Shown in pieces: positions 1 to 18,519 of a DNA stretch of 39,779 nt. Location: positions 1-39,779 of IMG/VR virus record IMGVR_UViG_3300032342_000022. One strand, given 5' to 3'. The translations under genes and the position numbers were made by a program. The stretch is from a virus. Each line of letters starts with the position of its first letter. Within the stretch, counting starts at the first letter, position 1. The notes under the pieces were generated by a model. That model was given only the letters and a program-made list of their open reading frames with translations, made no database searches and was not told the origin of the DNA.

Positions 1-705
1 CCCGAGCTGTACTCGATGCAGGACCTTCAGGAAGACCGCGAGAGGATGGGCACGATCATCTACAACCGCGAGCTCATGAACGTCTGTCAGGATGACAGCG
101 AGGCGATCGTCAAGTCCAAGTGGCTGACGGCGTGGGAGTACGACTCCGACGTCAAGTGGGCGTCCCTGCTGCAGACTCGAGACGTCCGGATCGAGAGCGT
201 CGTCTTGGGCAACGACCCGTCGACCGGCGAGAAGGAGACGGGAGATCCCGCGGGGTACGCCGTCGTCGTCAAGACGCGCGGCCCGGGCACCCGGTACGAC
301 TACTGGATCGAGCAGCTGCACAACGAAGTCATGTCCTGGGACAACCGGCTCGCTCAGCTCGAGAGGATGCACTCAGCCCAGAACTCCCGCGGCCCGGAGC
401 ACCGGGTCAAGCGGGCGTACGTGGAGGGGATCGGCGGATTCAAGGACTACGCGAACCAGGCGAAGGCGAGGACGTCTCTCCCGATCGAGGTGGTCCACTG
501 GGTGAAGGGGAAGAAGGCGAACCTCGCCGCGAAGTCCGGGCACTTCGAGTTCGGCCGCGTGCACCTCTCGAGCAAGATCCAGAAGAACTTGCGGGACGAG
601 CTGCTCTCGCAGCTGACGCAGAACGAGCCGAAGCACGATGACCTCCGCGACGCAGTCCTGCTGTGTCTCGAGGATCCCACCATGAGCATGAGGGACTGGG
701 TATGA
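1..705 (+). CDS. Terminase large subunit, C-terminal part (5' truncated by window edge)
   Basis: The frame is open from base 1, so only the last 234 residues are seen; the ATPase half lies upstream. This is the nuclease half of the packaging motor, which cuts concatemeric DNA during head filling. The sequence shows an RNase H-like arrangement: a beta strand ending in GNDPSTGEKETGDPAGY (bases 208-261), where the Asp would be the first metal ligand, a middle strand VEGIGGFKDY (421-450), and a late KHDDLRDAVLLCLE helix (631-672) with the paired acidic residues typical of terminase nucleases. The stop overlaps the start of the next gene (ATGA at 702-705), so the polyprotein is probably translationally coupled to it. 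I am confident of the terminase call; the subfamily cannot be decided from this half. Confidence 0.85.
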   Translation, partial: PELYSMQDLQEDRERMGTIIYNRELMNVCQDDSEAIVKSKWLTAWEYDSDVKWASLLQTRDVRIESVVLGNDPSTGEKETGDPAGYAVVVKTRGPGTRYDYWIEQLHNEVMSWDNRLAQLERMHSAQNSRGPEHRVKRAYVEGIGGFKDYANQAKARTSLPIEVVHWVKGKKANLAAKSGHFEFGRVHLSSKIQKNLRDELLSQLTQNEPKHDDLRDAVLLCLEDPTMSMRDWV

Positions 706-3700
706 TCAAGGTAGGGGATAATGTCCGCGACAAGACCTTCGGCAAGTTCTCTCGAGGGGTCGTGATCGCGATCATCGGTGACCGTGCGACGATCAAGTAC
801 GACGCTGGTGGGACGCATGATGGGGTGTCGATCAGTGACTTGGAGGTCTGCAACGCCATGAAGAAGACCGGCATCTACGCGAAGATAGCAGCATCCGTCC
901 GGGAGCTCATGAACTCTGAACCCTCCTGCGCGGTCTGCGGCAAGACCCGGCACGAGGCCGGCGAGCTCGACACGATCGACGGACGCCTCGTATGCGAGCC
1001 ATGCTCCGGCCAGCAGTTTTACCAGCAACCGAACTCGAATGCCGCTCCCCTCACCTGCGAGTGCGGCCATCCCATGGCAGAGCACCAGCTCGACGATGAG
1101 CTAAACGACAAGTGCACCCGGTGCGACTGCTTGTCGGCGATGGTGAAGGAGAACTCCGGCCGCTTCAAGCTCGGCGACGTCGTCCGCATGACGAAGGCCA
1201 AGCAGGACCGTTCGCTGTGGCGCGGCGACGATGTCATCTGCAGCATCGTGACGGTGTACGAACCTGGGGACCGGTTCGACTACCAGCTCAAGGTCCGGGT
1301 GAAGGGAGACTCGAACACCGGGTCCACGGAAGTCAAGGAGTCGGAGATCGAGCTGGCGAACTCCGTCGATCAAGGCCCTACGTGCTCATGTGGTCATTAC
1401 AAAGCGGCACACCGGAATGACGGTGAATGCGAATTCTGTGGCTGGAAGTGCAAGTCGTACAAGGAAGTGGGGAACTCCAAGTGGCTGTCAGCCGTCCCCT
1501 CCGCGTGTCAGGCGTGCAAGCAGCCCTTCACGGGCGGAGTCTTCCACGACGCGCCCACCGAACCAGGCGGTCCCTGGGGCCTGATCTGCGAGGCGTGCTC
1601 TAAGAAAGGAAAGGCAGCCGGGGCGACCGCGGGACAGAAGTATGATCTCACGACCAAGGAGAAGTTGAACGCGGGAGACAAGACGATCAAGTACAAGGGG
1701 TACTCGATCACCTCGGAATCTACCGGCGATGTCATTGTCGGGAAACCGAATGGTGATTACGCGTATAATACGTACAACGTCGCCGATGCTAAGCGGTGGA
1801 TCGATGATCGATCGGAGAGAGGGAACGCCGCCTACAAGGGCGCCCGCGTGTACTCACGGATCAACCCTACTGATCATGGGACCGTGGTGGAGACTGACGG
1901 GGACTCTGCCCTGGTGGACTGGGATGGATCGGGGAAGGCGTGGATCGGACAGAGGGACCTCGTACGGATGGAGAAGACGAACTCCGCCGCCTCGGACTTT
2001 GAGCACCATGTCCACGCGTGCCCCACTTGCAACTGGGAGACGGAGCGGGAGAAGCTCTGTCCCAAGGGGCAGGAGCTCTACGACAAGTTCATGACAGAGC
2101 CCGGATCCCGGATGGGGGAGAGAGGTAATGCGAGCATACCTCGCTGTCCGAATTGTGGGGATCGGTTGTATAAGGTCAAGGAGTGGGACGACTCGACTTC
2201 CTTTGAGTGTCGAACCTGCGGTGATCAAAACGTAAAGCCGGCGAAGAACTCTGGCGGTCCTCACGCCGACGCCGCCTTCGACGCGCACGCCTCCGAGTGC
2301 CCGGAGTGCGGAGCGGGGAAGCCGTGCGCCAAGGGACTGGAGATCAAGAACGCCCGCGACTACGGCGACCTGAACGACGACACCATGGTTAAGTGCCCGG
2401 AGTGTGGGAAGGTCCAGCGTTACGGTGCGATGTACTCGTTCGGCGCGTGCACCGACCCGAAGTGCAGCTTCGAGGTCACCGACGAGACGGTGGGACTGGG
2501 ACTCCCGAGGGCGAACTCTTCCGATATCATGGGCCAGTGCAAGTCCTGCGGCCACGACATCGAGGTGGAGGAGAATTCCGTCGACGTCAACCCCACGTGC
2601 ACCTGCGGTCACTCCCTCCAGGATCACGCCATCGATGGGATCTGCGAGACGTGCCGGTGCCCGGAGTTCACGCTCGAGTCGAAGCTGTACACCCAGCCGA
2701 TCTCGATGAATGCGAACGCCTCCAAGGCCTGCCCGTCCTGCGGCGCGGAGATGCACGTGAGCAACCCTCAGGCTCCCGGACTCATCCAGCGCCAGTGCAC
2801 GAAGTGCGGCGAGGAGACGCAGGGGGAGGAGGGACTGAGGGAGTACGGTAACACTGTCGAGATGGTGTACGACATGCGCAGTTACGATGAGGTCCTGAAG
2901 TGCAAGTGTGGGCACTCGATTCGACAACACGAGGAGTTCGGTAAGGAACCGTGCGAGAAGTGTGATTGTATTGGATACGATGGACCACACATCGGAGATG
3001 CTGCAACGGAAGCCAAGATCAAAAAGATCCCGATGCGCGGGAACTCCAAGGGCTACTGTCCCGACTGCAAAACTGAATTGTGCGAGTGCGGTCGTTGCCA
3101 TAATGTAGTTTGTGGAAAGAGTCCGGTCTGCCGTCGACCTGGGAAAGATACGAGCCCGAAATGCTCGTGCGGGCACTCGAAACTTGATCACGTCGGAAAT
3201 GGGGAGTGTATCAAGTGCGGAGAAGGTGAGTGCACGTATTTCGACTTACGGAACACTGCATCTCCCGCCAAGAAGTGCCCGGAGTGCGGGAAGGAGATGT
3301 GGCTGATCGACGCCGGGGACGAGAGGGTGTGGACTTGCGTCAGCTGCGAGCACCACGAGAAGGCGAATGCCTCTTCCTTTAAGAAAGGTGACCGCGTGCG
3401 CGTCGTGCGGCTCGTCAAGGATCCCGAGGGCGAGGAGGACATCACACCAGGCGCGACGGGCGTCGTGTCGGACGTCTCCGGCGGCTTGGTCTCCGCAGAC
3501 ATGAACCCAGGCGGCCCGTGGCAGGGGCACACGGTCGACTTCCTGCCGGCGGACCTCGAGCTGAAGAACGCCGTCGGCGACGCCGAGTACGACGAACACC
3601 TGAAGAAGTGTGGGATCTGCAGCAAGGCGCAACGCCCCGCCGACCTGTGCGAGAAGGGGAGGGACCTCAAGGAGAAGGGGAACGCCTCCGACTGCCTGGC

Positions 3701-6062
3701 CTGCGGCCACAGCGCCCAGCTCCACGACCGCGTCGACCGGGGTTGCACCTTCAAGGGGTGCCCGTGTCAGCAGTACGACTCGCGGGAGTATAAGAACTCC
3801 GACCCCTTCGACCCGAACTTCAAGAGGCTAGCTGATCATCTCGGTTCGTGCGAGAAGTGCAAGACTCTACTCGGAAATCCGCACGCACGGGGATCAGGAT
3901 TTAATAGAGACGTGTGCCAGGTCGGCTATGATCTAGATCAGAAGGCTAAGTTCACGGACAAAGAAAACTCCGACCCCGACAAGGAGGCCCTCTCCCGCGA
4001 CGTGACCGAGGAGGAGTCCGCGATCCGGCTCTACGAGAAGCAGGCCGCCGACGCCAAGCGCCCCCACGTCAAGGAGCTCATCGAGCACGTCGTCAAGGAC
4101 GAGCGCGAGCACGTCCGCGAGTTCGAGGAGCAGCTGAAGGACGTGGACAAGGCGGGGGCGGTCGAGAACGACATGACCGAGAAACGAGGTGAGTACAACG
4201 GAGTTAGGTATAAAGTTCAATTCGGGGGCGACGCAGGCAAGTCCGGAATCTGGTCGGGGTACGATAATGATGGATTCCGAATTATATTTGCTATGTCCAA
4301 AGAAGAGTTCGAGAGAAAGGTAGATTCCGGTAGTACGGCGTACGCCGGTACTAAAAAGGCACGGGATCGATACCTAAAAGACAAGGGGCGTGGTAACTCC
4401 GCTGCGAAGGGGGTCCGCCCCTATGAGGACCTGAAGTATGAGGTCAAACCTGGAGGTAAGATTCAGGTCGGTCACAAGTGTGCTCACGGCGGCGGTGAGT
4501 GGCTTTGGTACGACAACGGCGGTCGCTGCAGCCAGTGCAAAGAAGTTTACAGCGTTCCGGAGTCCCTTGCGAACGCCTCCTCCGCCCACTGCGACGCGTG
4601 CGGCCACAACCACCCGGCTCCCCTCGCGACGTGCAACACGCCGACCGAGCTCGGGATCTGCAGGTGCCCGAAGGTCTGGAAGAAGGTGGAGCCGGAGACG
4701 AAGAACGTGGAGGATGCCGAGGGCCACGAGCATGACGAGAGCGGCAAGTTCACTTCCGGCGGAGAAGGTGGGGGATCCACTCCAGCCAAGGATCCGGTAC
4801 TCGCGGTAGAGGACCGATTCGATGCGGAGAAGAAAGCCGAGGCAGCCGCCAAGGCACAAGCGAAGAAGGAGCGCATGGCCCGCATCCGAGAGGCGAACAA
4901 GAAGCACAATGCTGCAGACGAAGACGACTGCCGGTCCTGCGGCCACCGACGCAGCAAGCATTCCGGGAATAAGTGCTCCGACTGCTACGCCGGGCGGCTG
5001 TACGCGCACAAGTTCACCGAGAAGGGAGAGCCGACGGCCCCGCTGGGTGACATCGACAACGCCTTGACTCCAAAAGAACAGTGGTTGTTTCAAGAGTACG
5101 GTCAAGCCGGAGTCGATGAGTTCAGAAAAGCCAAGACGGATACCGAGCGCAACGATGTTATCGCGTACGGGCCGGGTAAGGGAAATCCGAACTTTGGAAA
5201 AGGATTGAAGAACGCCAACGACATGACCAACATCCCCGCCGCCGCGTGCGGCAAGTGCGGGGGCTGGACCGACTTTGGCGGCATGAGCCAGCACGCCGAC
5301 TCCAAGGTGCCCGTGTCCGGGCGCACCGGATGCACCTGCCGGGGCAAGTGGCGCGAGGGCGCTGACGGCAACCCTCCTGGCTACGTCGACCTCAAGGACC
5401 CGTCGGGCGCAGAGGCGCGGAGGGCGTTGGGGAACGCCTCCACCGACGACGACCGGACGATGTTCGGCGTGCGCTACCGCAAGGGGATGAAGAGCACCCC
5501 AGGCCAGAAGTTCTTCAAGACGGCGGACGCCCGCTCCAAGTGGGTCGAGCAGCAGGGCGGTGACATCGAGGTCGACGCCTACACGGATCCACAGGGCAAC
5601 GCCGTCCCCGACATCCAGACCCCCGACTCCCGCGAGAATGCGCGCGAGAACGCCTTCACCATGATTTGCCCCGTTTGCGACGACGCGGTCGCGCCGGCGG
5701 TCAACCCCGAGACCGGGATCAAGAGCTGCTCCAAGTGCGGGTCGGCGGACTTGTTGGTCGACCCAGACGAGAACGCCGTCCCCGACATCCAGACCCCCGA
5801 CTCCCGCGAGAACTACGGCGGGCGGCAGTACGGGTCGAGGGAGTACCAGAACGATGACGACTCGCCACTCACCCCCGGTGCAGGTCGCTTCTCCAAAGTT
5901 TCGAGGGAAGACGACAAGCGTTTCGTCGTGTACAAGGACGACCAAGGAAATTTTCAGCTCTTTGACCGCTATTGGCAGAAAGATGCCGGTGGGTTCATGA
6001 GCAAGCACGACGCGTACGCGAAAGCGAATGAGTACAATCGAATGCGAGGCTGGGGAATCTAG
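702..6062 (+). CDS. Giant modular zinc-ribbon polyprotein 1 (1786 aa), predicted protease substrate
   Basis: I recognise no full-length homologue. It is a chain of small domains lying between terminase and portal, where a head gene is expected. Residues 1-67 are SH3-like (VGDNVRDKTFGKFSRGVV). Then follow eight CxCGH/CxxCGH zinc modules, several CPxCG ribbons, four H-x3-C-x2-C modules with a downstream Cys and usually a Gly, further SH3-like modules (FKLGDVVRM, FKKGDRVRVV), a ferritin-like half-domain (about residues 1090-1156), an Ala/Lys-rich stretch after HDESGKFTSGG, and small unknown alpha/beta modules. Nearly every module starts just after Asn-Ser or Asn-Ala (roughly thirty sites), which looks like repeated protease sites. 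Near the C-end lie two copies of a 13-residue segment and RQYGSREY. The ATG at 702 overlaps the terminase stop; an in-frame upstream ATG at 663 lies inside the terminase gene. Patches of lower GC coincide with some modules, suggesting piecemeal acquisition. Internal capsid or injected protein is an inference; the domain chain is seen directly. Confidence 0.8.
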   Translation: MIKVGDNVRDKTFGKFSRGVVIAIIGDRATIKYDAGGTHDGVSISDLEVCNAMKKTGIYAKIAASVRELMNSEPSCAVCGKTRHEAGELDTIDGRLVCEPCSGQQFYQQPNSNAAPLTCECGHPMAEHQLDDELNDKCTRCDCLSAMVKENSGRFKLGDVVRMTKAKQDRSLWRGDDVICSIVTVYEPGDRFDYQLKVRVKGDSNTGSTEVKESEIELANSVDQGPTCSCGHYKAAHRNDGECEFCGWKCKSYKEVGNSKWLSAVPSACQACKQPFTGGVFHDAPTEPGGPWGLICEACSKKGKAAGATAGQKYDLTTKEKLNAGDKTIKYKGYSITSESTGDVIVGKPNGDYAYNTYNVADAKRWIDDRSERGNAAYKGARVYSRINPTDHGTVVETDGDSALVDWDGSGKAWIGQRDLVRMEKTNSAASDFEHHVHACPTCNWETEREKLCPKGQELYDKFMTEPGSRMGERGNASIPRCPNCGDRLYKVKEWDDSTSFECRTCGDQNVKPAKNSGGPHADAAFDAHASECPECGAGKPCAKGLEIKNARDYGDLNDDTMVKCPECGKVQRYGAMYSFGACTDPKCSFEVTDETVGLGLPRANSSDIMGQCKSCGHDIEVEENSVDVNPTCTCGHSLQDHAIDGICETCRCPEFTLESKLYTQPISMNANASKACPSCGAEMHVSNPQAPGLIQRQCTKCGEETQGEEGLREYGNTVEMVYDMRSYDEVLKCKCGHSIRQHEEFGKEPCEKCDCIGYDGPHIGDAATEAKIKKIPMRGNSKGYCPDCKTELCECGRCHNVVCGKSPVCRRPGKDTSPKCSCGHSKLDHVGNGECIKCGEGECTYFDLRNTASPAKKCPECGKEMWLIDAGDERVWTCVSCEHHEKANASSFKKGDRVRVVRLVKDPEGEEDITPGATGVVSDVSGGLVSADMNPGGPWQGHTVDFLPADLELKNAVGDAEYDEHLKKCGICSKAQRPADLCEKGRDLKEKGNASDCLACGHSAQLHDRVDRGCTFKGCPCQQYDSREYKNSDPFDPNFKRLADHLGSCEKCKTLLGNPHARGSGFNRDVCQVGYDLDQKAKFTDKENSDPDKEALSRDVTEEESAIRLYEKQAADAKRPHVKELIEHVVKDEREHVREFEEQLKDVDKAGAVENDMTEKRGEYNGVRYKVQFGGDAGKSGIWSGYDNDGFRIIFAMSKEEFERKVDSGSTAYAGTKKARDRYLKDKGRGNSAAKGVRPYEDLKYEVKPGGKIQVGHKCAHGGGEWLWYDNGGRCSQCKEVYSVPESLANASSAHCDACGHNHPAPLATCNTPTELGICRCPKVWKKVEPETKNVEDAEGHEHDESGKFTSGGEGGGSTPAKDPVLAVEDRFDAEKKAEAAAKAQAKKERMARIREANKKHNAADEDDCRSCGHRRSKHSGNKCSDCYAGRLYAHKFTEKGEPTAPLGDIDNALTPKEQWLFQEYGQAGVDEFRKAKTDTERNDVIAYGPGKGNPNFGKGLKNANDMTNIPAAACGKCGGWTDFGGMSQHADSKVPVSGRTGCTCRGKWREGADGNPPGYVDLKDPSGAEARRALGNASTDDDRTMFGVRYRKGMKSTPGQKFFKTADARSKWVEQQGGDIEVDAYTDPQGNAVPDIQTPDSRENARENAFTMICPVCDDAVAPAVNPETGIKSCSKCGSADLLVDPDENAVPDIQTPDSRENYGGRQYGSREYQNDDDSPLTPGAGRFSKVSREDDKRFVVYKDDQGNFQLFDRYWQKDAGGFMSKHDAYAKANEYNRMRGWGI
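1056..4987 (+). other. Eight CGH-type zinc modules inside polyprotein 1
   Basis: Eight copies of a compact pattern, C-x(1,2)-C-G-H then in most copies x3-4-H, followed by C-x2-C-x-C or a close variant, begin at bases 1056, 1383, 2598, 2901, 3162, 3693, 4590 and 4929; each spans about 60-85 bases. Examples are TCECGHPMAEH, TCTCGHSLQDH and KCSCGHSKLDH. Three copies end in an aromatic residue two or so after the last Cys. The spacing fits one or two Zn ions. Similar C-x-CGH-x4-H patterns occur in many phage and actinobacterial hypothetical proteins, with no function I can name. Copies differ strongly at DNA level, so they are old or separately acquired rather than recent tandem duplications. Confidence 0.75.
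3969..4169 (+). other. Ferritin-like (rubrerythrin/encapsulated-ferritin type) half-domain in polyprotein 1
   Basis: The module between KEN-S (3960-3971) and VEN (4161-4169) predicts two long helices. Helix 1 has TEEESAIRLYEKQA (from base 4005) and helix 2 has EHVVKDEREHVREFEEQL (from 4083). Glu near residue 1105, and Glu1134 and His1137 in an E-x-x-H pattern, match the iron ligands of short ferritin-like proteins that dimerise to complete a four-helix bundle. Such half-ferritins are known as cargo of encapsulins, which share the HK97 fold with phage capsids. Iron binding here is inferred from motif only. The module has cleavage-like Asn-Ser at its start and VEN-D at its end, so it could be released as a protein of about 66 residues. 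Confidence 0.6.
5598..5812 (+). repeat. Perfect 41-bp direct repeat in polyprotein 1 (5598-5638 and 5772-5812)
   Basis: The same 41 bases occur twice, 174 bases apart and in the same frame. They encode NAVPDIQTPDSREN each time, that is, an Asn-Ala junction, a short linker and a second Asn. Between the copies lies one zinc ribbon (C-P-V-C then C-S-K-C-G). Perfect DNA identity in an otherwise diverged protein points to a recent duplication, or to gene conversion of the linker rather than of the domain. Confidence 0.9.
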
Positions 6063-6065
6063 GTC

Positions 6066-7517
6066 ATGGCCTCCACCAAGAAGTCTCCGCTGGAGCTTGA
6101 GAACGCAGTCTTGCGCGGTCGCGTCGAGCACCTGCGCGAGATCGTGTACCTGAAGAAGGCGCAGCTCACCAACTCGCTCACGGGCTTGGCCGGAAGCATG
6201 ATGCACCAGGACAACATCAGCAGCCTGATTCCGCTGTTCTCCTCCAACCTGTACTCCCCGCTGACCCTCAACTACACGCTCCTCACGTACATGTACAAGA
6301 CGCACGGCGTCCTGCAGACCATGATCGACGAGCCGGTCCTCGACGCGTTCCGTGAGGGCCTGGAGCTGCAGTCCCTGGAGCTCAGCGCGGAGAACATCGG
6401 GGAGCTGGAGGACTTCGCCGAGGAGAAGGGCATCTGGGAGACGGTCAAGCAGGTCCTGATCTGGGGCAGGCTCTACGGCGGCGCCGGGGCGATCATCAAC
6501 GTCGGACAGGACTGGGAGAGGCCGTTCGTCGAGGCTGATATGTGCCAGGGCGAGCTCGAGCTCTACGACGCCGACCGCTGGGAGTTCTCCGGCGCCATGC
6601 GCTCCGCCAAGGAGTTCCTGTTCTACGGAAAGAAGCTCGACGCCTCCCGCGTGCTGACCTTCGGCGGCAAGCGCGCCCCGCGCATCATTCGCGCCCAGCT
6701 CTCGGGCTGGGGCATGTCGGAGATGGAGCGCGCCGTCGAGGACTTCAACATGTGGCTGCGCGGCCGCAACGTCCTCTACGAGATCTTGGACGAGGCGAAG
6801 ATCGACGTCTACAAGATCAAGGACTACGCCGCCACGCTGGCGACCGCCGACGGCGAGGGGCTCATCCGCGCCCGCATCGCGGCGACCAACCAGATCAAGA
6901 ACTTCCACAACGCGCTCATCCTTGACAAGGAGGACGAGTACGAGGTGCAGGCAAACTCGTTCTCGGGCATGGCCGAGGTCATGCGGGAGAACCGGTTCGG
7001 CATCGCGTCGGCGCTCCGCATGCCCATGACCAAGATCTTCGGCATGAGCGCCGCCGGGTTCAACGCGGGCGACGACGACCTCGAGAACTACAACGCGATG
7101 ATCACCTCCCAGGTGCGCGAGCCGGCCAAGCCGATCGTGCGCAAGGTGCTCCGGCTCCTCCAGCTCGCCGTGTTCGGGAAGGTCTACGACATCAGCTTCA
7201 AGTTCAAGCCCCTGCGCATCATCGGGGCGGTCGAGGAGGAGACCATCAAGTCCTCCAAGCAGGCCAGGTACGTCGCCTTGTACTCGGCCCAGCTCCTCGA
7301 CGCTAAGGAGATCGGCGAGCTCCTCCACAAGGATAATTTGGTGTCCATCCAGACCAAGGCCCAGCAGGGACTGCTCCCGCCTCACGTGACGGCGCCGAGC
7401 ACCGGGCAGATGTTCGGGGACGCGCCGGAGCCGCAGTCGGAGGCGGAGAGGCTGGAGGCCGCGCCGGTGCCGCCTCCTCCGCCCGCCGCGATGGAAACAG
7501 GGGAGGCTCAACCATAA
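6066..7517 (+). CDS. Portal protein, DUF1073-type
   Basis: The portal forms the ring at the capsid vertex through which DNA passes and onto which terminase docks. The 483 residues have the features I associate with DUF1073 portals: an N-terminal region with YKTHGVLQTMIDEPVLDAFR, a central IWGRLYGGAGAIINVGQD strand region (about residues 135-153), a stem or wing helix region with MRMPMTKIFG-like text (ALRMPMTKIFGMSAAGFN), and a Pro-rich C-terminus. Length is normal for the family. It starts three bases after the polyprotein stop with only a weak Shine-Dalgarno, so coupling is likely. The stop overlaps the next ATG (TAATG). Its position right after a 1.8-kDa-residue-scale polyprotein rather than right after terminase is unusual. 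Confidence 0.85.
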   Translation: MASTKKSPLELENAVLRGRVEHLREIVYLKKAQLTNSLTGLAGSMMHQDNISSLIPLFSSNLYSPLTLNYTLLTYMYKTHGVLQTMIDEPVLDAFREGLELQSLELSAENIGELEDFAEEKGIWETVKQVLIWGRLYGGAGAIINVGQDWERPFVEADMCQGELELYDADRWEFSGAMRSAKEFLFYGKKLDASRVLTFGGKRAPRIIRAQLSGWGMSEMERAVEDFNMWLRGRNVLYEILDEAKIDVYKIKDYAATLATADGEGLIRARIAATNQIKNFHNALILDKEDEYEVQANSFSGMAEVMRENRFGIASALRMPMTKIFGMSAAGFNAGDDDLENYNAMITSQVREPAKPIVRKVLRLLQLAVFGKVYDISFKFKPLRIIGAVEEETIKSSKQARYVALYSAQLLDAKEIGELLHKDNLVSIQTKAQQGLLPPHVTAPSTGQMFGDAPEPQSEAERLEAAPVPPPPPAAMETGEAQP

Positions 7518-7750
7518 TGGACAAGGAAAATCCGCAGACGTCGGACGACATGGTGCACGTGAAGATCGCGTTCGACCTCAAGACGTCGCAGTGCACGCTG
7601 TCGAGCAAGTGCCCTACGGTCATGCTGCTCGGGATCATCGAGACGGCGAAGTCGATCGTGATCCAGCAACAGGTCATGGCGACGCTGAAGGCGATGGCGG
7701 CCAGGCCGCAGATCGTGCCGGCGACGGCGGACATGGTGAGGCCTGCCTAG
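7517..7750 (+). CDS. Small hypothetical protein (77 aa)
   Basis: The start ATG shares one base with the portal stop (TAATG). The protein is short and mixed alpha/beta: an N-terminal strand VHVKIAFDLKTSQCTLSSKC, then a helix rich in Ile, Ala and Gln, and a Pro-rich end. No motif identifies it. Its place between portal and Mu F-like protein suggests a head-assembly or packaging accessory. The sequence ACCATAATGGACAAG around its start recurs exactly around the start of the gene at 9872. Confidence 0.6.
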   Translation: MDKENPQTSDDMVHVKIAFDLKTSQCTLSSKCPTVMLLGIIETAKSIVIQQQVMATLKAMAARPQIVPATADMVRPA

Positions 7751-7751
7751 C

Positions 7752-7961
7752 ATGCGCGACCGAACCTCCCTGCTCAGGCGGGCCGGCAAGCTGGCGGCCG
7801 TGGCGTGCCCGACGTCGGGCGCCTCGCTGGCCGAGCGCGAGACCGCGCGCAGGCTGGCCGAGCGGCTATGGCGGGCGCTCGGCGAGATGGGCGGGGGAGT
7901 GGCGGTCATGGTGGGCGGCCGGACGGCGTTCCAGTTTTCCGCTAATGGGGCGGCCGCGTGA
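7752..7961 (+). CDS. Small hypothetical protein (69 aa)
   Basis: It begins one base after the previous stop and its own stop overlaps the GTG of the next gene. The sequence is basic and helix-forming at the start (MRDRTSLLRRAGKLAA, then ERETARRLAERLWRAL) and ends in a Gly/Val-rich strand (GGGVAVMVGGRTAFQF). No family is recognised. GC-rich codon use and tight spacing support a real gene. The motif GCTAATGGGG lies near its end at 7941-7950. Confidence 0.5.
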   Translation: MRDRTSLLRRAGKLAAVACPTSGASLAERETARRLAERLWRALGEMGGGVAVMVGGRTAFQFSANGAAA

Positions 7962-8968: not shown

Positions 8969-9573
8969 GAATCGGGGCGCGGTGCCTAGTCGGCGAGCGG
9001 TACGGCGAGGTCTATGACATCGCCGGGAACATGCCGGGCGGCCGGTTCTTCAAGGTCAAGTTCGACGACGGGGAGATCACGACGGAGCAAGAAGAGCACA
9101 TCATGGTCTTGCCGAAGGGGTACAAGGAAAACGTGAACTCCCTCTGCTTTTGTCCCCACTGCGGCGAGGACCTCCGCGGCCCGCTCCTGCCGGAGGGGCC
9201 TTCCACTATGATGGAGACCCCCGAGGGCCTGATGCCGGTCGACCCGTCGCCGAAGCCGCAGCCCCACAAGACGGTCAAGCAGCAGGAGGTCACCGCCAAG
9301 GAGGTCGAGGCCATCTGGGGCCTGCAGCCGCTGCCGACCGGGATGCGCCCGTTCGGCGTGGTGACGGACGGGATCTCGGACCTGCCGCTGGCCCTCGCCG
9401 CGTCGAGCGTCACCGGCGAGCTGTGGGAGATACAGAAGGGCGAGGTCAAGATGCTGGACCTGTCCGCCCCGGTGGCGAGCGTCGTCGCCCGCGAGAACCA
9501 CGCGTGCGCGCCGGACACGTCGATACGGAAGGAGTCGCTGGGCAACTCCAGGTACGGGGGCCGCCTGTGCTGA
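8965..9573 (+). CDS. SH3-like plus zinc-knuckle head accessory protein (202 aa)
   Basis: The ATG at 8965 overlaps the previous stop (ATGA) and has TTGGAG upstream; an upstream in-frame ATG at 8929 lies inside the Mu F gene and is less likely. Residues 1-50 form an SH3-like barrel (GARCLVGERYGEVYDI, then FFKVKFDDGEITTEQEEHI) like modules of the two giant polyproteins. A KENVNS junction follows, then CFCPHCGEDL, a half zinc ribbon. The middle is Pro-rich; the last third is a compact GMRPFGVVTDGISDLPLALA domain. The C-terminus LGNSRYGGRLC resembles the C-end of the protease/scaffold (LGRSRYGS). I infer it is a stand-alone relative of the polyprotein modules, directed to the head; its activity is unknown. 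Confidence 0.65.
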   Translation: MRIGARCLVGERYGEVYDIAGNMPGGRFFKVKFDDGEITTEQEEHIMVLPKGYKENVNSLCFCPHCGEDLRGPLLPEGPSTMMETPEGLMPVDPSPKPQPHKTVKQQEVTAKEVEAIWGLQPLPTGMRPFGVVTDGISDLPLALAASSVTGELWEIQKGEVKMLDLSAPVASVVARENHACAPDTSIRKESLGNSRYGGRLC

Positions 9574-9857: not shown

Positions 9858-9871
9858 GAGGGGATACCATA

Positions 9872-11984: not shown

Positions 11985-12199
11985 TGGCTAACCTCGGGAC
12001 GCCTACTAAGTTCGGAACGGTCTGGGTCATCGCCGTCTGCGCCGCAGCCCTCATCGGGTGGGACGTCTACGCGGCCATGAGCCCGACGCAGCCGACGATC
12101 TCGGCCCTGGCGCTCATGGTCTCCCGCCACCCGGTGGTCCCGTTCCTGGGCGGAGTCCTGGCGGGGCACCTGTTCTGGCCCCAGCAGGTGAAGGCATGA
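11984..12199 (+). CDS. Small membrane protein, holin-like (71 aa)
   Basis: It starts with the ATG of an ATGA overlap and ends in another one at 12196. Two hydrophobic segments are visible: VWVIAVCAAALIGWDVYAAM (residues 12-31) and HPVVPFLGGVLAGHLFWP (about 50-67), joined by a polar loop. That is the size and layout of a class II holin or of the small membrane proteins often found in phage head clusters. No lysis partner such as an endolysin is visible in the window, so holin is a possibility rather than a firm call. Confidence 0.55.
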   Translation: MANLGTPTKFGTVWVIAVCAAALIGWDVYAAMSPTQPTISALALMVSRHPVVPFLGGVLAGHLFWPQQVKA

Positions 12200-15100
12200 G
12201 CCCGATATTCCGCCTCCTCAACTCCCGACCAGGACGCCGCTGCGAGTTCGCCGGCCTGCCCGTCAACGTGGAGATCGAGGTCGGCGAGGTCAAGAGCGGG
12301 GTCGACGAGAACGGGATGGCCTGGCACCACGAGTACCAATTTCCTTATGGCGAGATCCTCAAGACCGAGGGGGCCGACCGCGACCCGGTCGACGTCTACC
12401 TAGGGCCTGACGAGTCCTCCGACAAGGTCTTCGTCGTCCACCAGGTCCGGGCGGACGGCGAGTTCGACGAGGACAAGGTGCTGCTGGGCTTTTGCGCCGC
12501 CGGCGACGCCGAGAGGGCCTACCGCGACCACGGCCCCGACTGGGGATTCGGGAGCATGGACGAGATGACGCTGGACCAGTTCGTGGAGGGGTACCTGGCG
12601 AGCAACCGGCCTAATCCTCCTTCCGGATCTTGTGATACCATTGAGGGGCACCTGAATACCGCGAGCGAGCAGGACATCAAGGACGTCTGGTCGGCCCTAT
12701 CCTACGACGAGCGCGAGTTCACGCTCAAGCGGGCGGGCCTGCCCCCGGAGTACCGCCAGGGCTGGGCGCTCATCCCGGAGGACGCTCGCGCGAAGCTGCG
12801 CCCGCTCTTGGTCAATGCCGAGCTCTCCAACCCCTCGCCCCGCTCTGGCGAGGCCGAGGGCGACTACGTCTCCCGCTTCATGGCCTCCGCCGAGGCCCAG
12901 CGGGACTACCCCGATCAGAAGCAGAGACTCGCCGTCGCATACTCGATGTACCGTGAGAGGAACTCATCCATGAATAACGCAGCCGCCATCGTCGTGACTC
13001 AAGACGGTAACTCCTACGACCTGGAGATCATGGACGGTACGCACGTGAAGATGCGGTTCACCGGCGGAGACGGCAGGTGGGGCATCCCGCTGCACATCGG
13101 GCAGCTCGCCCCCGAGGTCATGGACCAGCTCAAGGCGAAGGGGCTCGCGGACAAGGGCAACGGATTTTTGAAGGAAAACGCCATGAAAGACCTGGACCTC
13201 TGCAACGCCTGCGGCGGCGCGATGCGGGAGACGGGCCGGGTGGGCGACCTCGTCAGCTCGCGGTGCGAGGGCTGCGGGAACGCGGCCCATGCGGCGGGGA
13301 ACGCCTTCTCCGGATGTCGCTGTGGGCATACCCGCCGGGATCATGTGGATCTGGTGGGAAAGTGCGGGGAATGCACTTGCGCCAAATTCTCTGACGCGGG
13401 TTTGCCCAGCGAAAAAGCCAACTCCGCCCTGGACAGCATCGCCCCGAAGGGCGACGCGTTCCGGCCCATGTTCACCCACGGCAGGGGCGTCAGTTTTTCC
13501 AATTCCCGGTTCACCCCATTGAGCATCACCGGGGAGCGGCTCGACCTCGAGCTGGCCCCCGGCGAGGACGCCAAGATCGAACGCGGGCGCCCGTGGAGCG
13601 CCAAGCTCAAGCTGACGAGCGGGCAGTACGTATACGCCAAGGGCGCGGACTGCGGGGCGCCCGGGTGCTTCTGCGACGCCGAGCTGACGCGGCCCCTGGC
13701 CGGGAACTCCAACTCCGCCCTGGACAGCATCGCCCCCAAGGGCGACGCGTTCCGGCCCATGTTCACCCACGAGGGGAAGCGCAAGGAGTCGGAGATCTTC
13801 GGGCTCAAGCCGGGCGAGACGGAGGCGAAGCCGGCGGCCAACGCCCTCGAGGTGTGCGGCGCCTGCGGCGGGTCCATGACGGAGCTGGGCCGCGTCGGAG
13901 AGATGCGCCACTCCCGCTGCGACGCGTGTGGGCGAGACGAGCACGTCGAGCTGACGGGGGAGGAGAACGCCTCTCCCAAGTCGTGGTACTTCAGCCAGGG
14001 GAACAACTGGGGCTACGTCGACGCCGAGACGAGTTCGGACGCCATGGTAGAGGCGGAGAAGGTCCTGAAGTCGAATAAGGTCTTCACGAAGGAGGAGATC
14101 CACGTCGAGCGCAAGGAGCAGAGGAACATGGCCGGCACCTGTGCCTCGTGCCTGCATGGCCTCGCCGAGCACGACGAGTTCGGCTGCCTAGCCGGTGACT
14201 GCGACTGCGGCGTCGCGGGCCAGTCCCATGACTCCGCGAAGATGGAGCGCCACCTCCAGCCGGGGGACCTGGCGAACGCCTGCAAATTCAAACAAGGAGA
14301 CCGCGTCATCTGCGTCGGTGGCGGAGACAACGACGGCAAGAAGGGACTAATCGAGAAGGCGATCCCGCTTTCCCCTAGCGACTGCAGATACGACGTCCTG
14401 TGGGATGACAAGAGCACTACGAAAAACCTAGAGGAGAAGTGGCTGAAGCTCGAGGTCGGAAACGCCCTCGAGCCTGCTCCCGCGAAGGACCCCCTCGGCG
14501 CCTCCGAGAAGGACAACGCCGAGACCATCAAGGAGGCCGAGAAGGCCCACGCCAAGGTGGAGAAGGCGGCGGACAAGGAGAACAAGAACACCGACGGCGG
14601 CAAGACGAAGGCCGACGCCCAAGCCTGGCTGGACGCCCACAAGTCGGAGTGGATGGATCACGCCTCCGGAATGCTGTACATGCGAATGCTGAATGAGGGG
14701 TTCACCGACGAGGTGATCACACCTCTCATCAAGCAGCTCATCGCGATCGGCGTCGTCACGAACGCCTCCCCCGCGTACGTCCTCGAGTGGCGCTGGAACG
14801 GCAACTGGCGGCGCGACGACGTGGAGAAGCCGCTCGACCTCGCCACGGCCAAGCGCGAGGCGGCGGACCTGTTCGCCAAGCGGAACGAGAAGCTCACCAG
14901 CGTGCGCGTCATCGAGCAGGCCTCCGGCAAGGTGGTGGAGGAGCTCGGGAACGTCTCCATGGAGCCCGAGCGCGACGTCGACTGCGCGGAGTGGTTCGAG
15001 GCGGCGTTCGGCCGGAAGCCTGCGAGCGACCCGCAGTACTTCAAGGAGTGGCAGGAGCGGTGGAAGAAGGGCCCCCGCGACTTCATGAGCTCCCAGTATG

Positions 15101-16833
15101 CCGCTATCTTCGACCGGATGAAGGGGGTCAAGAACTCCCAGGACTCCTGCTCCTCGTGCAACAAGATGGTGGACACCAAGGACCTGAAGACGGTCACCGT
15201 ACAGGGGCAGCTGGCCTCCCTCTGCTCCGAGTGCAGGAAGACCATGGCGAACTCCCGCGACGAGAAGTGCCAGAAGAACATGGACCCGGAAGGCGGGCCC
15301 CACGCGTGGACTATGGGAGACGTCAAGCCGGACGGCACGGCTGCCTGGACTTGCACGTTCTGCGGCAAGTCAGAGGTGCACAAGAACTCTAAGGAGAACT
15401 CCACCGACTGCCCCGAGTGCAAGGACGTGCTCCACAATCCCTCCCTGGTGACGCGGGCATACGGTGACGAGCCGCACAAGATGCGGACTGCGGTGCGGGA
15501 TGGGGTCAAGCACGCCGAGGTCGAGGTCGACGGGGAGTGGGTTCCCTACTGCGGGAACTCCCTCAAGAACGACGCCTACAGCAAGGCCAAGGAAGACGCG
15601 GCCGAGAAGGCCTGGCGCGCCCACTACGACTCCTGCGACTCCTGCAGGGGAGCGGTCGAGGCCGGAGCCCAGGGACCCGGCGCCCTGTGCTCGAAGGGCG
15701 GGAAGCTGTTCATGGCCTGGGAGACGTCGAGCGAGGCGTACAACTCCGTGAAGAACGCCCGGCAGCGCAAGGACGAGTACGGCAGGTGCTTCGCGTGCCA
15801 CCATGACTTGTTCGAGCACCAGGGCAACGGAAAGACGTACAAGTGCTGGGAGTGCGACAAGCTCGGTAAGGAATGCCACGAGCAGGACGAGAACTCCATG
15901 AAGAACGCCGACCAGGGTTCCGGCAAGAAGTGCGAGGAATGCGGGCACCCGGCCGCGAACCACCGCGGAGCGGAGGACGACCTCCGGTGCCAGATCTGCG
16001 ACTGCAAGCAGCTGAAGAACGCCGACCAGTCCGCCCTGGGGTTCCAGCAGGACGCGAAGACCACGACCGCCGGGGCGGTCCATAAGGAGGAGGACAACGC
16101 CTCCCCTGTCCCTGTCGCTGTGACGTACCAGTCGGTCAAGAACCCGCCGTTCGAGGTCGAGATGTCCGACGGCTCGAAGAAGATGATGACCCGCGACCAG
16201 TGCACGGCGGCGGGCGTCCCGAGCGACGCGTGCCGTGAGGCGATCACGGGTGGCGAGCGGGTGGGGATCATGACCAACTCCTCCCCAGATGGCGCGGTGC
16301 ACAAGGAAGAGAAGAACGAGGGCAAGGGGTTGTCCGGTCAGAAGTACGTGGATTGGTGCGACTGCCGGTGGCCGACCGGTAGCAAGCCGCGGCACGTCGA
16401 TGGCTGCCGCGTCCGCGGAGCCGGGGACGACACTCCGATCAATCCGAGCATACCGCTGCCCAAGGAGAACTCCACTGAAGGCACCGACGAGGGCCCCGAG
16501 GCCCACATGACCCCCACCGAGCTCGCCAAGCACGAGCGCTCCGAGACCCCCGGCGTCGAGGCGGCGGAGCACCAGAACGACAAGCGTGACGACGCCTTCA
16601 GGAAAGCGGACGCCCTGAAGAAAGAAGTGAATAAGATGTACGAGAAGCAGGGACGGGAACCTCGCCTATTGGAGGATGACATCTTCCAGGAAGAGCTCAG
16701 GAAACTCGAGAAAGCGAAAGACTCGGCCATGTATGAATGGATGGCCTTGAGCCAGAATTCGATCAACACCGGCCCCTCAGAGGAAGACGGTGCGAGGAAG
16801 TATGGATCCGCGGAGAACGAGGACGGAGAATAG
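12196..16833 (+). CDS. Giant modular polyprotein 2 with pyrophosphatase-like head and zinc modules (1545 aa)
   Basis: The ATG at 12196 overlaps the previous stop; an in-frame ATG at 12058 lies inside the holin-like gene. Residues 10-137 are an inorganic-pyrophosphatase-like domain. Residues 230-260 contain GDYVSRFMASAEAQRDYPDQ, a short helical module common in phage head proteins. Then come paired CGG-[AS]M zinc ribbons, four CGH-type modules (from 13315, 14140, 15787, 15931), an SH3-like module (FKQGDRVICVGGGDN), an H-x3-C-x2-C module (15613-15715), charged coiled-coil stretches (residues 790-830 and 1440-1510) and unknown domains such as VLEWRWNGNWRRDD. Modules are separated by Asn-Ser or Asn-Ala, roughly thirty times. 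LLN-S is at residues 7-10 and ARKYGSAE near the C-end. It fits the published idea of phage polyvalent proteins, multidomain proteins thought to enter the cell with the DNA. The protease gene follows three bases later. Confidence 0.8.
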   Translation: MSPIFRLLNSRPGRRCEFAGLPVNVEIEVGEVKSGVDENGMAWHHEYQFPYGEILKTEGADRDPVDVYLGPDESSDKVFVVHQVRADGEFDEDKVLLGFCAAGDAERAYRDHGPDWGFGSMDEMTLDQFVEGYLASNRPNPPSGSCDTIEGHLNTASEQDIKDVWSALSYDEREFTLKRAGLPPEYRQGWALIPEDARAKLRPLLVNAELSNPSPRSGEAEGDYVSRFMASAEAQRDYPDQKQRLAVAYSMYRERNSSMNNAAAIVVTQDGNSYDLEIMDGTHVKMRFTGGDGRWGIPLHIGQLAPEVMDQLKAKGLADKGNGFLKENAMKDLDLCNACGGAMRETGRVGDLVSSRCEGCGNAAHAAGNAFSGCRCGHTRRDHVDLVGKCGECTCAKFSDAGLPSEKANSALDSIAPKGDAFRPMFTHGRGVSFSNSRFTPLSITGERLDLELAPGEDAKIERGRPWSAKLKLTSGQYVYAKGADCGAPGCFCDAELTRPLAGNSNSALDSIAPKGDAFRPMFTHEGKRKESEIFGLKPGETEAKPAANALEVCGACGGSMTELGRVGEMRHSRCDACGRDEHVELTGEENASPKSWYFSQGNNWGYVDAETSSDAMVEAEKVLKSNKVFTKEEIHVERKEQRNMAGTCASCLHGLAEHDEFGCLAGDCDCGVAGQSHDSAKMERHLQPGDLANACKFKQGDRVICVGGGDNDGKKGLIEKAIPLSPSDCRYDVLWDDKSTTKNLEEKWLKLEVGNALEPAPAKDPLGASEKDNAETIKEAEKAHAKVEKAADKENKNTDGGKTKADAQAWLDAHKSEWMDHASGMLYMRMLNEGFTDEVITPLIKQLIAIGVVTNASPAYVLEWRWNGNWRRDDVEKPLDLATAKREAADLFAKRNEKLTSVRVIEQASGKVVEELGNVSMEPERDVDCAEWFEAAFGRKPASDPQYFKEWQERWKKGPRDFMSSQYAAIFDRMKGVKNSQDSCSSCNKMVDTKDLKTVTVQGQLASLCSECRKTMANSRDEKCQKNMDPEGGPHAWTMGDVKPDGTAAWTCTFCGKSEVHKNSKENSTDCPECKDVLHNPSLVTRAYGDEPHKMRTAVRDGVKHAEVEVDGEWVPYCGNSLKNDAYSKAKEDAAEKAWRAHYDSCDSCRGAVEAGAQGPGALCSKGGKLFMAWETSSEAYNSVKNARQRKDEYGRCFACHHDLFEHQGNGKTYKCWECDKLGKECHEQDENSMKNADQGSGKKCEECGHPAANHRGAEDDLRCQICDCKQLKNADQSALGFQQDAKTTTAGAVHKEEDNASPVPVAVTYQSVKNPPFEVEMSDGSKKMMTRDQCTAAGVPSDACREAITGGERVGIMTNSSPDGAVHKEEKNEGKGLSGQKYVDWCDCRWPTGSKPRHVDGCRVRGAGDDTPINPSIPLPKENSTEGTDEGPEAHMTPTELAKHERSETPGVEAAEHQNDKRDDAFRKADALKKEVNKMYEKQGREPRLLEDDIFQEELRKLEKAKDSAMYEWMALSQNSINTGPSEEDGARKYGSAENEDGE
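12223..12606 (+). other. Inorganic-pyrophosphatase-like domain at the head of polyprotein 2
   Basis: Residues 10-137 contain EGADRDPVDVYLGP, in which Asp61, Asp63 and Asp66 keep the D-x-D-P-V-D-V spacing of the soluble pyrophosphatase signature; the second position is Arg instead of Gly, Ser, Asp or Asn. A second acidic cluster, FDEDKVLLGF (Asp91, Asp93, Lys94), matches the later D-x-D-x-K-like element. Pyrophosphatase-like domains of this kind have been reported in phage polyvalent proteins. Retention of the acidic residues suggests metal binding and perhaps activity on PPi or a nucleotide; the substrate is unknown. The domain is preceded by LLN-S at residues 7-10. Confidence 0.7.
13315..16009 (+). 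other. Four CGH-type zinc modules inside polyprotein 2
   Basis: Copies begin at 13315 (CRCGHTRRDH), 14140 (CASCLHGLAEH), 15787 (CFACHHDLFEH) and 15931 (CEECGHPAANH), each followed by a C-x2-C or C-x-C end. Two have CLH or CHH in place of CGH but keep the ligand spacing. They belong to the same type as the eight in polyprotein 1 and the one in the protease scaffold (from 17560), giving thirteen copies in three genes. Confidence 0.7.
13419..13771 (+). repeat. 62-bp direct repeat in polyprotein 2 (13419-13480 and 13710-13771)
   Basis: The two copies differ at one base (G at 13446, C at 13737) and encode the same peptide NSALDSIAPKGDAFRPMFTH. Each copy is associated with a related zinc ribbon: C-N-A-C-G-G-A-M upstream of the first and C-G-A-C-G-G-S-M downstream of the second, both with a GRVG linker and S-R-C-x2-C-G. 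This suggests duplication of a block made of ribbon plus linker, with the linker kept nearly identical. The repeat begins at an Asn-Ser junction. Confidence 0.9.
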
Positions 16834-16836
16834 GCC

Positions 16837-18519
16837 ATGGAAAATCATCCGAAGGTCCTGCTGAACTCGCCCTACCGCTCCCGCTTCGAGAACGAGATGA
16901 AGCGCACGGAGTGGGCGAAGCTCTTCACGGCGAAGCACCTGGAACCGGGAGTGGTCACCTACGACCAGGCCGACGGCTCCAAGAAGACCTACCTCCTCAC
17001 CCGTGAGGCGATCGCCAAGATGCGCCCGACCGCCGAGGGCAAGCCCATCGTCGGCAAGTCCGGCGACTTCGACCACAAGTCGGTCAAGCCCACCGACTTC
17101 CAGGAGGGCGAGGTTGACGGCGTCGTCGTGGAGGGCTTCGACTCCGGTGACGGGTGGGACTCCATCCGCTTCATGGTCTGGGAGCCAGAGACGAAGTCCC
17201 GCTGCCTGGCAGCCCACGACAACGGGGACGACCACCAGATATCGTGTGCCTACGTGCCTACCGAGACGGACGAGAAGCCGGGCTTGTGGCACAACGTGCC
17301 GTACGACGAGGTGATACTGAGCGGGGAGTACACTCACTTCGCGATCGTACCGAACCCCCGCTACGAAGGGGCCGTGATCCTGGCGAACTCGATGAAGAAA
17401 GGAGGCATAGTGAACAAGGTGCTAAAGTCGGTGCTGAGCTTGGTCCCCGTGGCCGAGCTGAGGGAGATCGTGAACTCGATCGAGTCGGACCAGGAGGAGG
17501 CCAAGAAGATCGACGCGGAGAAGGCCGCCGCGGAGGTGAAGAAGAACGCCGACCCCAAGTGCTCGAAGTGCGGGCACGGTCAGATAAACCACTACGATGA
17601 GGGTAAGCTGACCTACTGTGCCGTACAGGGTCCTAAGAAAGGTGATAAAGGTGGGACCGGTACCTGCGGGTGTGAGGGCGACGGGAAGTTCAACGCCCTC
17701 CCGAACGCCGCCCCAGTCGACTACGAGGGCAAGGCATTGTCCAAGAAGCAACTCGACCAGATGAAGAGTTTGGGTCTTGAACCTTCTAAGCAAAAAGACA
17801 TCGACACGTTTGCCACCGTGCACGGATGGGGTCTCGATAACGCCGCCCCGCCAGACCCCGCCGTGGAGGGTGCCGGAGTCCTCGCCAAGGAGAAGCAGCC
17901 CGAGGCCGGAACCGAGGCCGCATCCCCCGAGGGGAAGGCCAAGGCCGCCGCCAACGACGGCGACGCCCCCGCCGTCCGCCCCGAGCCCGGAGTCGCAGGC
18001 GCGATCCCCGGTCCGGCAGCCAACGCGGACCCGGTCACCTGCGAGAAGTGCAAGAAGGTCGAGTGCACCTGCGCCGCCCCGGTGCCGGAGAAGGTCGTCG
18101 ATGCTGTCGCCGAGTACGAGGCCGCGATCGCTGCTGCCGTCGAGGCGTTCAAGGTGGATGGGGACAAGGCCAAGTACGAGGCGGCCGCGAGCGCAGCGCT
18201 GGACCGCAGGATGGCCTCAGATCCGAAGCCTGCTGCCAACGCGGAACCCGTGAAGCCGGAGGAGAAGCCGGTCATCAACGCCGAACCCTCCAAGGAAGAC
18301 CTGGAGAAGGCGAACGCCCTCCGCCGGCAGGAGAGGCTCAACGCCCTCAAGAAGCTCGCGCTGAAGAACACCGCCGCCAAGGAGGCCCTGCGAAAGCAGT
18401 ACTTCGAGGACCTCCGCAACGCGGCGGAGCTGAGGGGTGCCCGCTCCGGCTCGTGTGAGCTCGGCGTCACCACCTCGGATGACAAGCAGGATCTGGGACG
18501 GTCGCGCTACGGCTCTTGA
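16837..18519 (+). CDS. Prohead protease (DUF2213-type) fused to scaffold with zinc and Asn-Ala modules (560 aa)
   Basis: Residues 1-182 are the protease. The text RYEGAVILAN, the preceding EYTHFAIVPNP and the ISCAYVP strand are typical of DUF2213 head-maturation proteases. By analogy with S78/U35 proteases Ser136 (in QISCAY) and a His (His80 in DFDHKS is my first choice, His133 the alternative) would be catalytic. From about residue 184 the protein becomes scaffold-like: acidic, Ala/Lys/Glu-rich and helical, with a CGH-type zinc module (from 17560), a small EALSKKQLDQ-type helical module, a CEKCKKVECTC cluster and a Lys-rich C-terminus ending LGRSRYGS. The scaffold contains Asn-Ala or Asn-Ser about ten times (ILAN-S, VKKN-A, LPN-A, LDN-A, AAN-A and others), as in the polyproteins; LLN-S also sits at residues 8-11. 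The gene starts three bases after polyprotein 2 and precedes decoration and capsid genes, the standard place for a protease/scaffold. Confidence 0.8.
   Translation: MENHPKVLLNSPYRSRFENEMKRTEWAKLFTAKHLEPGVVTYDQADGSKKTYLLTREAIAKMRPTAEGKPIVGKSGDFDHKSVKPTDFQEGEVDGVVVEGFDSGDGWDSIRFMVWEPETKSRCLAAHDNGDDHQISCAYVPTETDEKPGLWHNVPYDEVILSGEYTHFAIVPNPRYEGAVILANSMKKGGIVNKVLKSVLSLVPVAELREIVNSIESDQEEAKKIDAEKAAAEVKKNADPKCSKCGHGQINHYDEGKLTYCAVQGPKKGDKGGTGTCGCEGDGKFNALPNAAPVDYEGKALSKKQLDQMKSLGLEPSKQKDIDTFATVHGWGLDNAAPPDPAVEGAGVLAKEKQPEAGTEAASPEGKAKAAANDGDAPAVRPEPGVAGAIPGPAANADPVTCEKCKKVECTCAAPVPEKVVDAVAEYEAAIAAAVEAFKVDGDKAKYEAAASAALDRRMASDPKPAANAEPVKPEEKPVINAEPSKEDLEKANALRRQERLNALKKLALKNTAAKEALRKQYFEDLRNAAELRGARSGSCELGVTTSDDKQDLGRSRYGS
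17410..18519 (+). CDS. Nested scaffold protein from an internal GTG start (369 aa, predicted)
   Basis: Within the protease gene, AAAGGAGG at 17398-17405 is a near-perfect Shine-Dalgarno placed four bases before an in-frame GTG (17410, Val192). The site lies exactly where the protease domain ends (ILAN-S, residues 182-185) and the scaffold begins. The product would be the scaffold alone, beginning MNKVLKSVLSLVPVAELR. Independent scaffold from an internal start is known for lambda Nu3 within C and for similar head protease genes. The ribosome site is better than that of the full gene, consistent with scaffold being needed in excess. Expression is inferred. Confidence 0.55.
   Translation: MNKVLKSVLSLVPVAELREIVNSIESDQEEAKKIDAEKAAAEVKKNADPKCSKCGHGQINHYDEGKLTYCAVQGPKKGDKGGTGTCGCEGDGKFNALPNAAPVDYEGKALSKKQLDQMKSLGLEPSKQKDIDTFATVHGWGLDNAAPPDPAVEGAGVLAKEKQPEAGTEAASPEGKAKAAANDGDAPAVRPEPGVAGAIPGPAANADPVTCEKCKKVECTCAAPVPEKVVDAVAEYEAAIAAAVEAFKVDGDKAKYEAAASAALDRRMASDPKPAANAEPVKPEEKPVINAEPSKEDLEKANALRRQERLNALKKLALKNTAAKEALRKQYFEDLRNAAELRGARSGSCELGVTTSDDKQDLGRSRYGS

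Follow-up and report, generated by a model that had tools for sequence, protein, structure and literature searches.

In bacteriophage T4 the internal proteins IPI-III and Alt enter the prohead by way of a short targeting peptide, which is removed by the assemblin-like protease gp21 (PMC9026906). In the giant phages phiKZ and SPN3US head proteins are each cut several times by an assemblin-like protease that recognises a short motif, and the heads hold proteins that are ejected (PMC10052503, PMC9026906). Polyvalent proteins are giant multidomain proteins of phages and conjugative elements, with inorganic pyrophosphatase (InPase) among their domains, that are predicted to be packaged and injected (Iyer 2017, PMC5512222). 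Their processing has been proposed to occur mainly through metallopeptidases within the chain, or through a C-terminal assemblin-like domain (PMC5512222); an in-chain peptidase is not a feature of every polyvalent protein. Here we compare with these systems the head operon of a 39,779-base virus record (IMG/VR record IMGVR_UViG_3300032342_000022, the whole of which is called the window below), which comes from a phage with a contractile tail and carries its head and tail genes. Two giant proteins of the window, P0001 (1786 amino acids, aa) and P0002 (1545 aa), and its prohead protease-scaffold fusion, P0003, are rich in Asn-Ser and Asn-Ala pairs (N-[SA]). From comparative sequence data we consider it quite likely that they form part of a head-assembly system in which an Asn-specific prohead protease dices tagged cargo polyproteins.

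A preliminary description of the window had counted by eye about thirty such pairs in each giant protein and about ten in the scaffold, and had predicted cleavage between the two residues. These counts were correct: there are 33 pairs in P0001 (10.8 expected), 33 in P0002 (11.0 expected) and 13 in P0003 (4.0 expected), 11 of the last in its scaffold tail. The comparison of observed with expected dipeptides proposed in that description confirmed the excess in all three proteins, the observed number being reached by 0 of 5000 shuffles in each case. None of the remaining genes of the window is clearly enriched, their counts lying at or near expectation: the portal has 6 pairs against 2.9 expected (p 0.05), a 120-aa open reading frame at 28870-29232 has 4 against 1.4 (p 0.025, uncorrected) and a 1655-aa protein of the tail region has 12 against 18.3, which is no excess.

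The protease had been labelled DUF2213-type, and its homologues bear this out, 39 of 41 matching DUF2213 (PF09979) with a best E of 2.5e-13, although the window protease by itself falls below the PF09979 threshold. His80, Ser136 and His167 are invariant across the 41 homologues. An AlphaFold2 (AF2) model of the protease domain, with a predicted local distance difference test score (pLDDT) of 86, is closest in fold to the proteases of varicella-zoster virus (VZV, Z 11.0) and pseudorabies virus (PRV, Z 10.3) and to T4 gp21 (Z 8.9); a Foldseek match of the model reached an E of 0.028 only. By its predicted fold and conserved His-Ser-His, the P0003 protease domain is assemblin-like, sharing both fold and His-Ser-His order with the herpesvirus assemblins of VZV, PRV and human cytomegalovirus (HCMV). 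Those proteases are likewise fused to a scaffold and take a small residue at P1', while their P1 residue is Ala rather than Asn and they have no cargo polyprotein. The fused scaffold of the window lies just upstream of the gene for the major capsid protein (MCP), an order that is kept in the relatives, and its tail also holds a zinc-type CxxC module.

Neither of the giant proteins, nor the protease taken whole, retrieved relatives from viral contigs when searched directly, and P0001 retrieved none from phage records either. Relatives were gathered by way of the capsid protein, giving 16 and later 79 viral and 10 genome loci plus the Bdellovibrio phage phi1422, and a protease-domain profile matches 82 loci, with the window counted and several near-duplicates included. 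In each of these 82, N-[SA] is more frequent than expected. When the dipeptides of 61 non-redundant scaffolds are ranked by z-score of over-representation, NA comes first (238 against 79.9 expected) and NS fourth (111 against 42.2), with R-Y and Y-G, which derive from the C-terminal tag described below, likewise among the top. No excess is seen in 363 downstream (tail) genes of the same loci, where NA occurs 458 times against 492 expected and NS 427 times against 427. Three more giant proteins, from phages L002, L010 and L019, are also enriched.

The pair also recurs at particular positions in other head proteins. In the window MCP and the 10 aligned relatives closest to it the motif N↓[SAT]-[ND]-G (the arrow marks the predicted cut) directly follows an N-terminal extension that varies in length and sequence, a placement expected for a maturation cut; the distant phi1422 MCP, the 12th row of the alignment, lacks this motif and has LLN↓A instead. 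The first 75 residues of the Mu-F-like minor head protein hold 68 pairs against 19.1 expected in 50 non-redundant relatives, with no excess in the remainder, and the portal N-termini of relatives hold N↓[SA][LIV] 34 times against 9.3 expected, an N↓SL-type motif recurring in diverged portals. The N-termini of control genes show no excess (180 against 205 expected). The signature was not seen in outgroups with related capsid genes (Aaphi23 and Erwinia LS-2018a) or in the Pbunavirus E217, except that the Aaphi23 protease has slightly more pairs than expected (5 against 2.1, p 0.036). The search of homologous phages suggested in the preliminary description thus recovers N↓[SA] in scaffolds, MCP and the N-termini of Mu-F and portal, and its predicted cleavage after Asn before Ser or Ala gains computational support, since the signature tracks the protease clade and is absent from tail genes and outgroups.

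Residues around the scaffold sites are also biased, with Glu favoured at P4, Leu, Arg, Val, Lys or Met at P3 and Lys or Gln at P2. A context profile trained on scaffolds, with the four giant-protein phages left out, ranks N-[SA] pairs of the giant proteins above those of tail genes with an area under the curve (AUC) of 0.66 (p 5e-10), and the score per protein is significant for P0001, P0002 and the L010 protein.

A second shared element is a C-terminal tag. At their C-terminal end the scaffolds share a conserved peptide, in its typical form [ED]-R-x-x-x-G-x-x-R-Y-G-S, and versions of it lie near the C-termini of all five giant proteins. Another is borne by a third protein of the window, a candidate cargo protein of 202 aa with one more N↓S ahead of CxxC. 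The last 130 residues of each were scored with profiles built from other phages. The six cargo proteins together give a p of about 3e-10, a value that is somewhat optimistic because the motif was spotted by eye ahead of testing; P0001 gives p 0.0012 and the core G..xYGS in P0002 p 0.0002, while 2 of 108 control genes pass the core test at p 0.01. When the profile was scored over entire giant proteins, only that of L019 stood above all shuffles. Small proteins directly upstream of the protease carry the tag in other phages, frequently with N↓A or N↓S next and then a module of zinc or SH3-like type, and in phage L101, which was found independently, GARKYGN↓A stands ahead of InPase and GQKRYGTVVN↓A ahead of another small protein. 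The tag itself contains a predicted cut site in 6 of 16 cases in cargo and in 5 of 57 in scaffolds (post hoc p 0.011), and N↓[SA] falls within or directly after the tag in 10 of the 16 cargo proteins. We read the tag as a likely removable capsid-targeting peptide that mimics the scaffold, whose role would be like that of the T4 capsid-targeting sequences (PMC9026906).

The predicted sites were then compared with module edges by cutting the five giant proteins of the four phages in silico. P0001 gives 34 predicted pieces, mostly of 30-75 aa and many with 3-5 Cys or none. Pieces with 3-5 Cys hold 70% of the Cys of P0001 (P 0.011) and 93% of those of P0002 (P 0.002), where cuts moved along the chain give 43% and 45%, respectively; L010 (P 0.017) and L019 (P 0.003) behave alike. 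In this way the predicted cuts divide the Cys into single zinc sites. Cys is depleted from -7 to +4 around the sites and peaks at +5 to +10, so zinc modules begin just behind many predicted cuts. Where segments are homologous between giant proteins, the median distance from a segment end to a site is 6 residues, against 15.4 by chance, and the interiors of such segments hold fewer sites than expected (39 against 59.1). In an AF2 model of P0002 residues 1-345 (pLDDT 68) the low-confidence stretches 1-10, 137-155, 257-263 and 328-345 coincide with sites 9, 154, 256/261 and 328/337. Site 154 is N↓T; because it and the N↓T at P0001 N717 align with, or adjoin, N↓A in relatives, N↓T appears to be a real boundary in places, and it is probably also cut. 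A boundary test with a regular expression for zinc cores was negative or uninformative, knuckles of neighbouring domains having been paired. The view that nearly every domain boundary carries the pair was somewhat strong: most predicted cuts do fall between small modules, as seen in homology edges, Cys partition and low-confidence stretches of the model, while some pairs lie within domains and some boundaries lack one.

In the mechanism that we propose, the scaffold-fused DUF2213/assemblin-like protease would cut between Asn and a following Ala or Ser, more rarely Thr, in a preferred context of roughly [E/P]-[L/M/V/K/R]-x-N↓[A/S]. Its substrates would be its own scaffold, the MCP propeptide, probably the N-terminal extensions of portal and Mu-F, and the two giant cargo polyproteins. 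The G-x-x-[RK]-Y-G-S peptide that the cargo copies from the scaffold would bring the polyproteins into the assembling prohead, where the activated protease would clear the scaffold and dice the cargo. The products would be dozens of small proteins, for the most part of 30-110 residues, among them zinc ribbons and SH3-like, InPase, rubrerythrin-like and helical modules. These proteins would stay with the DNA and probably be ejected into the host. Asn-specific cleavage of both the scaffold and the giant proteins by the adjacent head protease is favoured as the only explanation found that covers all the comparative data. We lean, with much less assurance, towards the further view that small effectors are made as two giant precursors, enter by a scaffold-mimicking tag, are released by Asn-specific cleavage and are injected with the DNA, injection being expected from the polyvalent proteins (PMC5512222) and the T4 precedent. 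A similar slight preference attaches to the idea that gain or exchange of a module needs only a kept N↓A/S junction.

The preliminary description knew of no system with this design. We found none either, and our reading of the open-access literature found no Asn-specific head protease and no phage head polyprotein, yet the T4 internal proteins and the polyvalent proteins are relevant precedents. T4 resembles the window in its short cleavage consensus and in the digestion of its scaffold (PMC9026906). It differs in cutting after Glu, where the predicted P1 here is Asn, in encoding its internal proteins as separate genes with one or a few cuts rather than as polyprotein cargo with about 33 sites, and in a targeting peptide that, unlike the tag here, does not copy the scaffold C-terminus. 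The phiKZ and SPN3US proteases also cut after Glu and trim propeptides, with no cargo polyprotein. The window resembles the polyvalent proteins in that its giant chains combine domains of unlike activity, with InPase, rubrerythrin-like and many zinc-ribbon modules spread over the two. For polyvalent proteins we found described neither a junction consensus nor dicing into dozens of zinc modules (PMC5512222). What would be new is the predicted P1 Asn, the dozens of sites in a cargo polyprotein and the tag copied from the scaffold. If true, this would be the first phage known, as far as we found, to use a polyprotein cut into pieces for protein delivery, Asn would be added to the P1 residues known for head proteases, and the tag with N↓A/S would be a readable code that predicts small head-carried proteins in a large clade of uncultured phages. 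It also suggests a modular way of loading proteins into capsids.

Several observations weigh against this interpretation. The relatives are of common ancestry, hence their pooled counts are non-independent. Portal bodies of relatives are also enriched in N-[SA] (179 against 109.6 expected); this is probably structural conservation, and it means that a conserved structural N-[SA] is able to mimic a cleavage signal. The context effect is modest, and in L002 and in L019 taken singly it falls short of significance, the Cys partition is not significant in L002 (P 0.15), and the full 16-column tag profile fails in P0002 (p 0.13), which matches in the core motif only. Some module boundaries have no N-[SA], and P0002 N337 looks intra-domain, standing amid the Cys of C-N-A-C with E-S in the L002 homologue. 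In the P0002 model site 207 is at the end of a helix and N272, which aligns with D-A in L002, is within a beta hairpin, so a minority of N-[SA] pairs are probably left uncut.

The giant proteins might instead be enlarged scaffold or core proteins, like T4 gp22 and gp67, that are chopped in the prohead by this protease into pieces which are then lost and do nothing in the infected cell. That the cargo shares its sites and C-terminal tag with the scaffold, whose own tail bears a zinc-type CxxC module, speaks for this. We nonetheless think it unlikely, as Cys-rich modules are conserved across phages with matching edges, the InPase has an apparently intact acidic motif, and mere destruction would require no cut sites that spare modules. 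It is very improbable that the pair merely reflects the composition of linkers, or modules that recombine at a DNA word common to them, with no recognition by a protease. Modules are indeed shuffled between phages, and Ser after Asn at sites of P0001, P0002, L010 and L019 is nearly always encoded by TCN (60:3 against 324:112 elsewhere). This bias fits a one-step interchange of Ala (GCN) and Ser (TCN) under selection for small P1' residues, and scaffolds have no such skew (143:35 against 853:269 elsewhere). The pair in scaffolds is encoded by 20 different hexamers that track genome GC and so is not a DNA repeat, and it marks positions in MCP and at the N-termini of Mu-F and portal, none of which are shuffled modules. 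InPase proteins, retrieved with the InPase domain cut out alone as profile query, provide the clearest control: 63 non-redundant proteins from loci in which this protease was not found in flanks of up to 8 kb (a distant protease gene being possible in some phages) show no excess, with 260 pairs against 267.1 expected, even though 24 are at least 900 aa and the longest has 3899 aa. The sole large enriched InPase protein retrieved (L100) is on the same contig as L019, from a phage carrying the protease, so giant multidomain architecture alone is insufficient for N↓[SA] junctions. Cutting after cell entry, by an asparaginyl endopeptidase of host or phage origin or by spontaneous Asn cyclisation, can hardly be credited. 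Such cyclisation chemistry is known from inteins and autotransporters, yet no intein-like domain was found in the two giant chains, nor a peptidase domain by Pfam or PHROGs; the signature co-occurs with the protease clade, stands in the protease's own scaffold and capsid protein, and is lacking in outgroup phages beyond the clade.

Table 1. Features of the head operon and of related sequences. Positions are nucleotides of the window unless stated otherwise.
Feature	Position	Strand	Remarks
TerL (end of gene)	16-705		
Giant cargo polyprotein 1 (P0001)	702-6062	+	between TerL and portal
Rubrerythrin/ferritin-like stretch of P0001, residues 1095-1162	3984-4187	+	Pfam PF02915, E 2.8e-5
Scaffold-like tag close to P0001 C-terminus	5790-5840	+	QTPDSRENYGGRQYGSR; profile from scaffolds of other phages
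Portal protein	6066-7517	+	PF06381; predicted N-terminal site N36↓S37, codons 6171-6176, LTN↓SLTGL
Mu-F-like minor head protein	7958-8968	+	PF04233; predicted N-terminal site N55↓A56, codons 8120-8125
Candidate third cargo protein	8965-9573	+	C-terminal tag DTSIRKESLGN↓SRYGGR at 9514-9564
Giant cargo polyprotein 2 (P0002)	12196-16833	+	directly upstream of protease
InPase domain of P0002	12238-12585	+	PF18823, E 2.3e-32; acidic D-x-D-x-V-D stretch
Scaffold-like tag close to P0002 C-terminus	16762-16812	+	INTGPSEEDGARKYGSA; core G..xYGS match
Prohead protease-scaffold fusion (P0003), 560 aa	16837-18519	+	
Assemblin-like protease domain of P0003 (predicted), residues 9-198	16861-17430	+	triad; DUF2213 in homologues; AF2 fold
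Protease triad codons	His80 17074-17076; Ser136 17242-17244; His167 17335-17337	+	
Scaffold tail of P0003	17431-18519	+	terminal tag TTSDDKQDLGRSRYGS at 18469-18516
MCP	19110-20234	+	PF09950; predicted maturation site ELKN51↓T52NG, codons 19260-19265; 51-residue propeptide
Sheath	22590-23768		
Cys-free module of about 50 residues	residues: P0002 155-207; L019 250-300, 1042-1100; L010 422-479, 1062-1115		
MCP and scaffold genes of E217 (L099)	7215-8363 and 5133-6566 of E217		with AMD-S

The contents of the two giant chains are varied. Pfam assigns many zinc ribbons and treble clefs to the pieces, together with one InPase and one rubrerythrin-like domain, and further pieces are Cys-free with no family assignment; the SH3-like modules are our own reading of GDxV-type sequences. 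The expectation of dozens of metal-binding proteins of 30-80 residues needs correction in that not all modules bind metal: beside the many zinc-type pieces there are InPase, rubrerythrin-like and Cys-free modules. The module AELSNPSPRS...YSMYRERN is found in P0002, at the front of the protease gene in L010 and L011, and twice in the L019 protein behind N↓[AS], one copy being full and the other truncated; on such matches modules are clearly shuffled between phages. Exact internal duplications, each copy directly behind an N↓[AS] site, are present in P0001 (AVPDIQTPDSREN, residues 1634-1646 and 1692-1704) and in P0002 (SALDSIAPKGDAFRPMFTH, residues 410-428 and 507-525), which suggests recent module duplication. 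A recurring Cys-free module with the pattern W..L....R...L...AG....W..L....R..L, probably helical, is part of the cargo of several phages.

Within the clade, phi1422 is an isolate with a protease of the same clade and an N-[SA]-enriched scaffold, in which Asn specificity is testable. Head operons of the clade also occur in the bins of L086 (a Patescibacteria metagenome-assembled genome), L093 (Bdellovibrio sp. UBA4095) and L095 (Termititenax), very different bacteria, hinting at either a broad host range of the clade or mis-binned phage contigs. Beyond the clade, the E217 structure does not show the first 65 MCP residues (PMC10329688). AMD-S stands at MCP residues 62-65 of E217, adjoining the first resolved residue, 66, and again in its scaffold. 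E217 had been considered as an experimental test of Asn at P1 and was dropped, having AMD-S at the site and no N-[SA] enrichment; from these two occurrences of the motif, the P1 residue of its head protease may be Asp.

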